Of a DNA stretch of 64,000 bases, positions 12,442-59,776 are shown one piece after another. Within the stretch, counting starts at the first letter, position 1. Every line of letters begins with the position of its first letter. The stretch lies in assembly GCA_003021175.1 (NCBI GenBank), contig PXQV01000010.1, positions 62,001 through 126,000 of the forward strand, given 5' to 3'. A program made the position numbers and the translations under genes. Under the pieces are notes generated by a model. It made no database searches. It was not told the origin of the DNA and saw only the letters and a list, made by a program, of their open reading frames with translations. This stretch comes from Halobacteriales archaeon QH_7_66_36 (GTDB lineage: Archaea > Halobacteriota > Halobacteria > Halobacteriales > Haloarculaceae).

Positions 12442-12638
12442 GTAGTGTTGACATGGGAGTGGTGGTGTACGTTTTGTGGTGGTGACGGTCTCGAAAGCCC
12501 CGACGCGCTCGACGAACCCGGACGATGCAAGCACCACAACGAAGTGAGGAGCGCAGCGAGGCCTGGGAGTCGAGCGCGTCGGGGCTTTCATTCCCACCCG
12601 ATACCGGGTGGGCGAGACGGCACCGCTTGGATAAACAG
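12442..12638 (-). repeat. Interspersed hairpin element, copy B
   Basis: Inverted relative to copies A, C, D and E. On the minus strand it starts near TGTTTATCCAAGCGG (diverged left end) and finishes TCAACACTAC. The core is a 21-bp perfect stem (12493-12513 with 12569-12589) carrying GAAAGCCCC/GGGGCTTTC at its base. A second hairpin, CCCACCCG-ATAC-CGGGTGGG, covers 12593-12612. The loop GAACCCGG...GAGGCC...GGGAGT matches copy A. CGTGAG flanks both sides (12436-12441 and 12647-12652), a possible target duplication. Confidence 0.72.
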
Positions 12639-18539: not shown

Positions 18540-18666
18540 GCGGTGTTCAGACAAGCGGGTCGTCGCTCGGCCAAGTAGCCGCGCCGGGTGGGACTGAAAG
18601 GGGCCGGGCGCTTTCTACACTTTGTCGCTGGCTCATCCAACTGAATTCCCCTTCCCTGAACACTAC
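18540..18666 (+). repeat. Interspersed hairpin element, copy C (short core)
   Basis: 127 bases, the shortest copy. The left end GTGTTCAG (18543-18550) pairs with CTGAACAC (18656-18663). The left block reads GGGTGGGACTGAAAGGGGCC as in copy A. The variable core is almost absent (GGGCGCTTTC follows directly). The right block GTCGCTGGCTCATCCAACTG is shared with copy E. It lies between the srp54 start and the LysE gene, so it sits in the upstream region of both. Confidence 0.8.
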
Positions 18667-18700
18667 CCTACTATATGTCATCGGCCACGAACCGACGACC

Positions 18701-44073: not shown

Positions 44074-44153
44074 GTCGGCGGCGTAGGCGAAGGAGACACT
44101 TAGCCGTCGCGCTGCGACCCATGCTGGGATGTGCCGGAGCGCGCCGGTAGCGT

Positions 44154-44631
44154 GGTAGTGTTCAAATGAACAGGTCGTCGCTCGACCGAGCAACCGTGCT
44201 GGGTGGAACTGAAAGGGGCCGTTATCGGCGGCTCCGCCGCCGATTGCTCGGGAGAGTTCTGCTCTCCCGGTGGGCGGTCGATCCGCCCCCGGCGTTCGGA
44301 AGACGCGGTGCGTCTTCCGCAGCCCAGCAGCAATCTGCGATTTCTGCGGGCGACGCAAGCCGCGAGGCGACGGCGTCGCCTCGGCCCGCTCGCGCGGGAC
44401 AACCGCGCGAGGACACCGCAGCGAACGCAGTGAGCGAGAAGCGCAGCGAGCCGCGGACCGCGAGGTGGCGGAGCCACCTCGGACAGTCGACGTGACGCGC
44501 CGACGACAGCGTGGAGCGGCGCTCCACGGGCCGTGCGAGCGGCGAAGCCGCGAGCAGACGGGCGAGCGACCGGGGGCTTTCCACACCGTGTTGCCATCCT
44601 ACTCTCCGGAGTCACTCTCAGCTGAACACTA
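44154..44631 (+). repeat. Interspersed hairpin element, copy D (long core)
   Basis: 478 bases, the largest copy. The end GGTAGTGTTCA (44154-44164) is inverted as TGAACACTA at the right edge. Direct repeats CCGGTAGCGT (44144-44153) and CCGGTGGCGT (44632-44641), 9 of 10 identical, flank it. The core is a string of perfect hairpins with short loops at 44224-44244, 44249-44269, 44272-44288, 44297-44319, 44363-44383, 44389-44411, 44461-44481, 44510-44528 and 44539-44551, with stems of 5-10 bp. The conserved left and right blocks match copies A, C and E. Confidence 0.82.
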
Positions 44632-44633
44632 CC

Positions 44634-44658
44634 GGTGGCGTCAGGCCACCACTTTTTT
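44634..44658 (+). terminator. Terminator-like hairpin with T-run
   Basis: GGTGGC (44634-44639) and GCCACC (44645-44650) around GTCAG, followed by six T (44653-44658). On the plus strand this resembles an intrinsic terminator. No plus-strand gene ends here, only repeat copy D, so it would stop transcripts leaving that element. Confidence 0.45.
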
Positions 44659-57936: not shown

Positions 57937-58151
57937 CGGTGTTCAGATAAGCGAGTCGTCGTTCGGCCGAGAAACCGTGGTGGGTGGGAATGAAAGGGGC
58001 CAGTCGCTCGATCCGGCCCCGGCAACGAAAGCACCGCAGCGGGCCGCAGGCCCGCGAGGCGCGCAACGAGCCGCGGCCGGGCGAGCGACCGGGGGCTTTC
58101 TAAACCCTGTCGCTGGCTCATCCAACTGCATCGCCCTTATTTGAACACTAC
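57937..58151 (+). repeat. Interspersed hairpin element, copy E, with 11-base flanking duplication
   Basis: 215 bases. The ends GTGTTCAGATAAG (57939-57951) and CTTATTTGAACAC (58136-58148) are inverted, 12 of 13. CGCAGAAGGGG occurs immediately on both sides (57926-57936 and 58152-58162), a perfect 11-base direct repeat typical of a target-site duplication. The core has GTCGCTCG/CGAGCGAC (58003-58010 with 58082-58089) around GCGGGCC-GCA-GGCCCGC (58039-58055). The right block matches copy C. Confidence 0.88.
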
Positions 58152-58224
58152 CGCAGAAGGGGAGGAGAGCGTGTGACGGCGACTCCCCTGACGGCCTCGT
58201 CACGGCTCGGGAGGGCCTGCCGTG

Positions 58225-58285: not shown

Positions 58286-59536
58286 CTACGACACGACTTG
58301 TTCTCCCGTGCGAAACGTCCCGCTCTCGCGGTCGAACAAGTATGTCGATGGCTGTGCCACACAGCCGTTACTCCTATCCTCACCGTGAGGACTCGGAGTT
58401 ATCTTCTGTCGCATATTCTCCGCCCCATTACAATCCGCGTTGGCCACCAACTCACACGACGAGCAAACGTACAACCCACGTTCGACACGGTTCGACTTCG
58501 TGTCATCGCCACACCGTGAACACGTCTTCGAGGTGTTCCACTCGTTCTCTTTCAGTACCTCAACACCACGTTCTCCGCCCTTGTAGTCGAGGTACTGGTA
58601 AATACGGTCAAACGCCCACGAGTGCAACTTCTTGTTGCCCGTTTTGCCCCAGTCTGACTCTCGCACGTCTTCGGGCCAACTCACCGCGAGCGTTCCGACA
58701 CCGCGTTCGACACATTCGGTGATGATGGCGTCCGTCAACGTGTGATAAAAGTGCGTTTCCCGGTCGGCGAGTTTCTGACGCGCCCACATCGACTTCTCAG
58801 ACGGGCCGTTCTCCCCCTCGGTGTTATACTCTGCTCGGGTGAAGTAGTGCTTGTCCTGTTTAAGTGAGTTACCGGGGTACAGAACGTATTCGTCGGAAAA
58901 GGCGACAGTGGCGGTGTTCTTGATACCGAGGTCGATACCTGCCACTCCATCGCCTGTTGAGTCGTTGGTTTCGAGTTCGACCTTACAGACGAAGTGCAGT
59001 TCCCATTCGTTGCCGTTCCAGACGGCGCGGATGTTCTGTACTCTGTTGACTTCTGAGAGGGCAACGTCAGGGCGCGTCTGGTACTCGCAGAGGATGAAGT
59101 CCGAGAGGTGTTCTTTCAGGTTCTTCCCTTTGCTGAGTCGGACGCGATTGTTCTCGAGATCGTGTTTGAATCCGTCTTCTTTGAATGTGACCGTGGAACG
59201 AGGTCGTTTGTCGCCGTGTTTGCGGTAGCCAGGTGGATTCGCCTCGTCAAACTCGTGTCGCACGTCGAACCACGACTGGAAAGCGTCGGAAAGTTCTTCG
59301 ATGACTTTCTGACTGGATTGCGCGTTCAAGTCTTTCCAGCACGCTTGGTTCTTCATGTACGATCTCAACACGCTTTCGTCTGGTATCTCGCCGGTCACGC
59401 CCCAGATGCGGTCTGCTGTCCATCGTGCGACGTTCCAGACTTTCGAGGCAGAATCACCGAGCGAATTGAGACCGTCGCAGACCTGCCGGTGGTTCTGGAT
59501 GGAACCAATGTAGGTGCCCGTGACCCCAATCGCCAT
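58286..59536 (-). CDS. tnpB: Intact TnpB, RNA-guided nuclease of an IS200/IS605-type element
   Basis: 416 aa from ATG 59536 (MAIGVTGTYIGSIQNHRQVC). The RuvC residues are all present: Asp in VAGIDLGIKNTATVA, Glu in LAVSWPEDVRESDWG and Asp in VANADCNGAENMRQK. The zinc ribbon is CSRCG...CSSCE. An N-terminal helical region of about 180 residues binds the guide RNA. No tnpA is next to it, so mobility would need one elsewhere. It belongs to a different subgroup from the decayed copy at 25 kb, with little similarity outside the motifs. It splits the cobalamin region. Confidence 0.9.
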   Translation of the reverse strand: MAIGVTGTYIGSIQNHRQVCDGLNSLGDSASKVWNVARWTADRIWGVTGEIPDESVLRSYMKNQACWKDLNAQSSQKVIEELSDAFQSWFDVRHEFDEANPPGYRKHGDKRPRSTVTFKEDGFKHDLENNRVRLSKGKNLKEHLSDFILCEYQTRPDVALSEVNRVQNIRAVWNGNEWELHFVCKVELETNDSTGDGVAGIDLGIKNTATVAFSDEYVLYPGNSLKQDKHYFTRAEYNTEGENGPSEKSMWARQKLADRETHFYHTLTDAIITECVERGVGTLAVSWPEDVRESDWGKTGNKKLHSWAFDRIYQYLDYKGGERGVEVLKENEWNTSKTCSRCGDDTKSNRVERGLYVCSSCELVANADCNGAENMRQKITPSPHGEDRSNGCVAQPSTYLFDRESGTFRTGEQVVS

Positions 59537-59776
59537 ACATAGCCTATGTAGACAAACCAACTTAACAGTACGGATTAACGTGGAATATCCGGCCCGTGTG
59601 TCGTCAGTGGGCTGTGGAGAAGTTGTCGGATTCACTCCCGTCCCCAGAACGCGTAGCGTTCTGGTGTGCGAACGAGACACGGAGCGTCTCGTCAACGTCG
59701 TAAACGGCGGGATTCTCTCCTTGCAGGAAAATAGCCTTTTCCCGGTGTCGTACCTGTGTCCGCTCCGCGTCGGACA
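59537..59776. repeat. Upstream flank of tnpB with a second, solo right-end-like sequence
   Basis: 240 bases between tnpB and cobA. On the minus strand GAATCCCGCCGTTTACGACG (about 59698-59717) closely resembles the right-end sequence behind tnpB (GAAGCCCCGCCGTTCACGGC) in the same orientation. Short hairpins AGAACGC/GCGTTCT (near 59646-59664) and GAGAC/GTCTC (near 59682-59694) are also present. It may be the relic of an older tnpB element into which the present one inserted. Confidence 0.45.

Follow-up and report, generated by a model that had tools for sequence, protein, structure and literature searches.

Location and structure of copy D

The window, i.e., the whole 64,000 nt stretch of DNA analyzed, is haloarchaeal with ~68% GC and is part of a 2.6-Mb draft genome. 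Copy D is bounded by a target site duplication, the left copy being GGTAGCGT (positions 44146–44153) and the right copy GGTGGCGT (positions 44634–44641), with one mismatch. Inside the duplication are the terminal inverted repeats. The left repeat is GGTAGTGTTCA on the plus strand (44154–44164) and the right repeat, on the minus strand at 44623–44633, is its exact inverse and reads TGAACACTACC on the plus strand. All features between these repeats are on the plus strand. The left frame GGGTGGAACTGAAAGGGGC (44201–44219) contains G-tracts and the 5' strand (GAAAG) of a stem termed P0. The invariant partner of GAAAG is in the right frame GGGGCTTTC (44573–44581), which consists of a G-tract and the 3' strand of P0.

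Set against short units from the same genome, D reads as a short scaffold interrupted by insertions at four places. Cassette M1 (44222–44272) lies after GGGGC and before stem P1 and has two hairpins, 44224–44244 and 44249–44269; its presence or absence in sister copies is unit-wise. The scaffold segment at 44273–44293, which aligns with the short copies, represents the 5' strand of P1 and P2 and houses most of hairpin 44272–44288. Cassette M2 (44294–44349), in the P2 region, has hairpin 44297–44319 and an imperfect hairpin at approximately 44327–44345. The core 5' strand GCGACGCAAGC (44350–44360) corresponds to the conserved GACGYAAGS of alignment A1. Cassette M3 (44361–44414), with hairpins 44363–44383 and 44389–44411, is inserted within AAGC^ACCGCA. 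The core 3' strand, ACCGCAG-hairpin-GAGAAGCGCAGCGAG, and the P2 3' strand are at 44415–44458, a region delimited by alignment with short copies and by a partial covariance model match (44406–44449). Cassette group M4 (44459–44561) is located before the P1 3' strand (44562–44572, placed by the same alignment) and contains 44461–44481, an imperfect hairpin at approximately 44486–44506, 44510–44528 and 44539–44551. M2 and M4 are delimited by the hairpin check and the module table described below, and M4 additionally by comparison of sister copies.

Three further copies in the window share the conserved ends: A (735–941), B (18542–18667), which has almost no interior, and E (57938–58152). The window also has a unit at 12482–12599 whose core is oriented opposite to the frame. 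Both frame arms of this unit are from the right arm (GAAAGCCCC ... GGGGCTTTC), which gives a fully paired end. Core inversions within the frame are also present at loci L091, L098, L234 and L236.

The hairpin string

The first-pass annotation described nine hairpins with perfect stems between positions 44224 and 44551. Each was checked base by base and all are present. The stem lengths, with all outer pairs counted, are 9, 8, 6, 10, 10, 9, 9, 9 and 5 bp. Two of the nine close on a single base; given a 3-base loop, their stems are 9 and 8 bp. The imperfect hairpins of M2 (CAGCAATC-TGC-GATTTCTG) and M4 (GTCG..CGAC) had been overlooked.

Hairpins were counted as perfect stems of at least 8 bp with loops of 3–8 nt, and 1000 dinucleotide shuffles served as control. 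The string has seven such stems compared with a shuffle mean of 0.19 and a maximum of 2; an equal number of hairpins in shuffled sequence, which the annotation had named as evidence against its claim, is thus not found at this stem length. For stems of at least 6 bp the count is eight (shuffle mean 1.46, maximum 5). With stems of at least 5 bp, the lower limit used in the annotation, it is nine (shuffle mean 3.8, maximum 9). The best shuffles equal this last count, and the small hairpin 44539–44551 is therefore not significant on its own. A scan of the 64-kb window found no other 328-base stretch with a comparable hairpin density.

Eight of the nine hairpins are genuine modules. The third, 44272–44288, is one strand of the underlying scaffold: it forms the 5' strand of P1 and is disrupted in sister copies L002 and L004. 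It is therefore probably fortuitous.

Hairpin cassettes as modules

The D hairpins belong to cassettes, mostly of two hairpins, that occupy four fixed positions in the scaffold; sister copies either have or lack a given cassette as a whole. A module table of 105 elements from the genome of D shows M1 alone in 14, M3 alone in 6, M1 with M3 in 3 and all four modules in 7, in addition to other combinations; 56 of the 105 carry none of the modules looked for. An array near to that of D is present in L002, L003 and L004 at 88–92% identity, with M1 missing from L004. Other genera have comparable two-hairpin cassettes at the same positions, in both orientations and usually with 3-base loops, e.g., GTCGTT-hairpin-TGATCA-hairpin-AACGAC with other perfect stems. 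The two-hairpin layout of M2 is found with different stems in L159, L173 and L201, and the M3 cassette recurs at the identical site in another genus (L150). The module combinations and their recurrence at fixed positions imply gain and loss, or exchange, as units.

The proposal that modules were collected one by one is thus largely borne out by the fixed positions and by the many combinations, but the usual unit is a two-hairpin cassette and the D array is not fresh, as it is nearly the same in three sister copies. Similarly, the stem sequences all differ within D as stated, but each module recurs in other copies in the same genome. Cassettes vary as units among sister copies. At the D locus, which the annotation had suggested comparing in relatives, four congeners lack a unit.

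The cassettes differ from the scaffold in how they change. Among four D-type copies compared, loops differ by 27.5%, stems by 4.7% and linkers by 5.7%, so that stems show no better conservation than linkers. In the genome of D, 97.6% of module stem pairs are Watson-Crick. The ratio of G.U to A.C pairs is 26 to 9, which comes from related copies and partly from one inherited change, and is 5 to 5 by a stricter count. Within one module, some loop triplets are reverse complements of others (TCC/GGA, TTC/GAA, TGC/GCA), which fits loop inversion. From these variable loops, inversions and a weak strand signal, the modules look tolerated, and their palindromy may be kept at least partly by processes at the DNA level, in contrast to the RNA-like selection on the scaffold.

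Terminal repeats and mobility

Scaffolds in the genome of D lie between terminal inverted repeats, with short target duplications outside them. The left motif GGGTGGRANTGAAAGGGGC is found at 139 places with up to two mismatches, compared with none in a reversed control, and sites resembling the terminal inverted repeat are found at 96 places, again with none in the reversed control. Target duplications, mostly ~8 bp and counted beside the 11-bp ends, are present in 26 of 65 elements with recognizable ends. The control, in which a left flank is paired with the right flank of a different element, gave a mean of 2.0 and a maximum of 7 in 200 runs. The excess over this control implies that the elements are mobile, or once were. 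They are ~120–500 bp including the terminal inverted repeats, which is too short to encode a transposase. Terminal inverted repeats, a target site duplication and no room for a transposase gene are properties of a MITE.

No IS6- or IS1595-type transposase gene is present in genomes G000 and G001. Among the loci examined, there is no pair of terminal inverted repeats around a transposase and no full-length autonomous partner. Exact matches to the terminal inverted repeats occur in viral contigs without the unit. No copy of D lies upstream of the orthologous CobW gene in four congeners, but synteny farther out is not kept, so these genomes do not provide a clean empty site.

Some copies consist of frame and terminal inverted repeats with essentially no interior (GGGGCCGGGGGCTTTC or similar), i.e., copy B and loci L021, L026, L027, L047, L054 and L064. 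The ends of L027 form a perfect 10-bp direct repeat, so an empty frame may have moved in that state or may have lost its interior afterwards. In the same genome, elements of the first and second subfamilies nearly abut in opposite orientation at L023, L024, L043, L044 and L050. Paired units in other genomes are often head-to-head with 15–27 bp between frames, an arrangement seen in 31 of 115 units. There is a mild excess of downstream genes co-directed with the unit (54 vs 31).

Conserved secondary structure of the scaffold

A simple unit has the layout GGGTGGGACTGAAAGGGGC, variable stem P1, conserved core and GGGGCTTTC. The fold common to units from other genomes is ~115 nt and consists of P0 (GAAAG:CTTTC), a GGG/GGG internal loop, the long and variable P1, P2 and small core helices. 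The core has GACGYAAGSACC ... GAGGASCGCAGCGAG flanking a variable apical hairpin. In the second subfamily of the genome of D, the P0 pair is GGAAG:CTTCC in place of GAAAG:CTTTC. The minimum-energy fold of D itself does not rebuild the full scaffold.

Covariation was assessed with an alignment of 53 units, all from genomes other than that of D. In this alignment 94.4% of cells are paired and 23 of 30 base pairs show double compensatory changes. The covariation score is 0.535, compared with 0.150 ± 0.009 for shuffled alignments and at most 0.096 for slid structures. Two independent observations agree with this result, namely the replacement of the P0 pair in the second subfamily and a core pair of type S-S that is G-C 39 times, C-G 38 times and mismatched twice. 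Wobble pairs in P1 are asymmetric, with 107 G.U and 18 A.C, where right ends were picked by Watson-Crick pairs only and related copies are treated as independent. Equal numbers would be expected if the double helix alone mattered, and the asymmetry therefore implies that the plus strand folds. Compensatory change thus maintains the scaffold, and selection acts on its plus strand. Because single-stranded DNA tolerates G.T pairs as well, the wobble asymmetry does not prove RNA and is also compatible with single-stranded DNA.

These data bear on the suggestion in the first-pass annotation that the string could fold as RNA, and on the compensatory changes it had asked for. Both are supported for the scaffold, where single-stranded DNA is also compatible. 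The inserted modules give a weak strand signal, and among the four D-type copies their stems vary about as much as the linkers.

Conservation of the frame is circular in this alignment because its units were found via the left motif. When units are found by the core alone, the frame is present in 27 of 31. Among these 27, 24 or more units retain any given G of GGG, GGG, GGG(G) and GGGG, and for most positions the number is 25–27; the T between the first two G-tracts varies to C. The presence of four conserved, nominally unpaired G-tracts suggests a possible quadruplex next to P1. The haloarchaeal cytoplasm is potassium-rich.

Distribution of the family

A covariance model (R1) built solely from units of other genomes detects copy A at 779–889 (E = 3e-17) and copy E at 57982–58100 (E = 7e-12). 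D gives only fragments, at 22.7 and 14.3 bits, because the insertions break up the match to the model; D may also be a decayed member, too altered to keep the original fold. The model finds 76 places in the genome of D. Within the order, it detects units in 27 of 33 genomes of one sample and in 143 of 195 of a larger one; the 164 genomes taken from elsewhere in the phylum gave no hit.

Exact matching of the left motif against genome contigs gave at least 114 stretches, and every record listed is haloarchaeal. Counted by left motifs, copy number ranges from none to highs of 139 and 178, both in the same genus, in which four other genomes have 2–7 each. D as query gives no match in plasmid or phage records, and the simple copy A matches 33 plasmids.

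Plasmid units and an SSB-like gene

On plasmids the unit is usually single. Eighteen plasmids spanning several haloarchaeal families were inspected, and in 15 of these (loci L265, L266, L268, L270–L280 and L282) the unit and a gene that resembles those for SSB/OB-fold proteins are divergent, with ~460–620 bp between the unit and the gene start. The encoded homologs are 57–92% identical, roughly 290 aa in length, and show a weak OB-fold/SSB match. The ~460–620 nt spacer is noncoding, conserved and rich in hairpins, and neighboring sequences on both sides differ between plasmids. Folding of the spacer does not distinguish the two strands, and the plasmid loci have no match in Rfam.

Units L101, L102 and L153, from Haloarcula and relatives, have a wholly different interior within the same frame GGGTGGGACTGAAAGGGGC ... 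GGGGCTTTC. They adjoin a 30%-identical relative of the plasmid OB-fold protein, and a TATA-like sequence, AGTATATAA, precedes the unit by roughly 250 nt. Units of this type look like the end of a longer RNA. Halobacterium has the minichromosome SSB-type genes rfa5 and rfa6 (PMC5924565), and the plasmid protein may be a candidate counterpart of their products. The association of the plasmid unit with an SSB-like gene provides a concrete functional lead.

Interpretation

D probably represents a non-autonomous, MITE-like DNA transposon that carries a long-form member of a haloarchaea-wide family of structured elements. A transposase acting in trans would move the MITE and spread its copies. The cargo would be a folded plus-strand molecule that is transcribed and most likely RNA, with the invariant G-rich frame and the GACG-AAG / GCAGCGAG core as its functional or protein-binding part. 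Cassettes would gather in the loops as tolerated expansion segments, comparable to those of rRNA. Their palindromes would be kept perfect partly by processes at the DNA level, and recombination would then mix the cassettes among the many paralogs.

It is possible, although on balance somewhat unlikely, that the hairpins matter only at the DNA level or not at all and are neutral clutter in a MITE, with hairpin-templated replication or repair creating and perfecting palindromes as in REP or BIME-like repeats. The hypervariable, inverting loops of the modules fit such a process, as do the occurrence of cassettes and of entire cores in both orientations and the low G.U to A.C ratio of the module stems. 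Palindrome repair does not explain the strand asymmetry of the scaffold (107 to 18) or the unpaired core and frame bases conserved across the order.

Another reading, unlikely but built on the conserved G-tracts and the plasmid neighbor gene, would make the unit the terminal domain of a folded haloarchaeal RNA, or single-stranded DNA, that has not been described before. The G-tracts (GGG-T-GGG ... GGG (stem) GGG) would form a quadruplex that caps P1 and is bound by the plasmid-encoded SSB-like OB-fold protein, and the mobile copies, D included, would be escaped decoys or satellites.

We also consider it improbable, and slightly more so, that the plus strand acts as folded single-stranded DNA, e.g., as a hairpin site of transfer or replication recognized by an SSB-like protein, with the genomic copies as mobilized relics. 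The divergent SSB/OB-fold gene and conserved structured spacer of 15 of 18 plasmids, and the 30%-identical relative next to the diverged Haloarcula-type units, are consistent with such a site. More than 100 chromosomal copies have no such gene nearby, and the TATA-like sequence upstream of the Haloarcula-type units fits transcription instead.

An IS200/IS605-type element, with its omega-RNA or sot RNA, or a PATE, is very improbable. Just beyond copy E (~80 bp away), a sot0042 RNA (RF02656; 58233–58404, minus strand) overlaps the 3' end of a TnpB-like ORF (58286–59695, minus strand), and in both systems the end consists of GC-rich hairpins and a following GGGGCTT. IS605-type elements and PATEs have no terminal inverted repeats and no target duplications (PMC3119063). 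The elements here have both, which largely refutes this assignment; the sequence of the sot match is distinct from the units, which match no sot family. Finally, a by-product of high GC (~70%) or of coding sequence, to which the long ORFs that run across the region by chance might point, is practically excluded, the former by hairpin counts far above dinucleotide shuffles and the latter by cassette lengths that are not multiples of three and are unequal between copies, and by the intergenic location of 150 of 166 units as determined with a simple gene caller.

Relation to known elements

The preferred reading, a MITE-like element with a structured cargo, has several known parallels. The MITEs of Haloquadratum walsbyi (PMC3119063) are likewise short, without transposase and present in many copies, with terminal inverted repeats and target duplications. 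The elements here differ in their cargo, a folded scaffold conserved across the order that carries hairpin cassettes at set positions, and no parent transposon is present among the loci examined. SMR-A (HqIRS42/43/55; PMC3119063) is ~110 bp with prominent inverted repeats and up to 54 copies, and its insertion sites are palindromes within other mobile elements, a resemblance to the hairpin cassettes and the unit. Unlike the outer element here, SMRs do not duplicate their target, a comparison drawn from published descriptions. The REP/BIME repeats associated with a tyrosine transposase (PMC2817692, PMC3733652) are also extragenic palindromes with more than 100 copies per genome, often as inverted pairs. 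REPs have a GTAG or CGTC tag beside a 20–40 bp palindrome (PMC2817692, PMC3733652). The units here are three to ten times longer, have a conserved internal core and appear to lack this tag. The sot RNA (RF02656) and PATEs share GC-rich terminal hairpins in haloarchaea but belong to a class without inverted terminal repeats or target duplications.

Similarly to structured non-coding RNA families, the scaffold has helices that covary across species, a conserved unpaired core and a wobble asymmetry that fixes the strand. No Rfam 15 family matches the units. With both gathering and relaxed thresholds, the window yields only sot0042 and a tRNA. No published description of the family was found in the open-access literature; an earlier description elsewhere is possible. 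MITEs, short mobile repeats (PMC3119063) and structured RNAs are already known, and the covarying folded element appears to be uncatalogued.

The family represents a strongly covarying element that is found in approximately three quarters of the sampled genomes of the order, at up to well over a hundred copies. It also provides a rare natural series in which cassettes are inserted at fixed positions, such that the growth of a structured molecule is traceable copy by copy.
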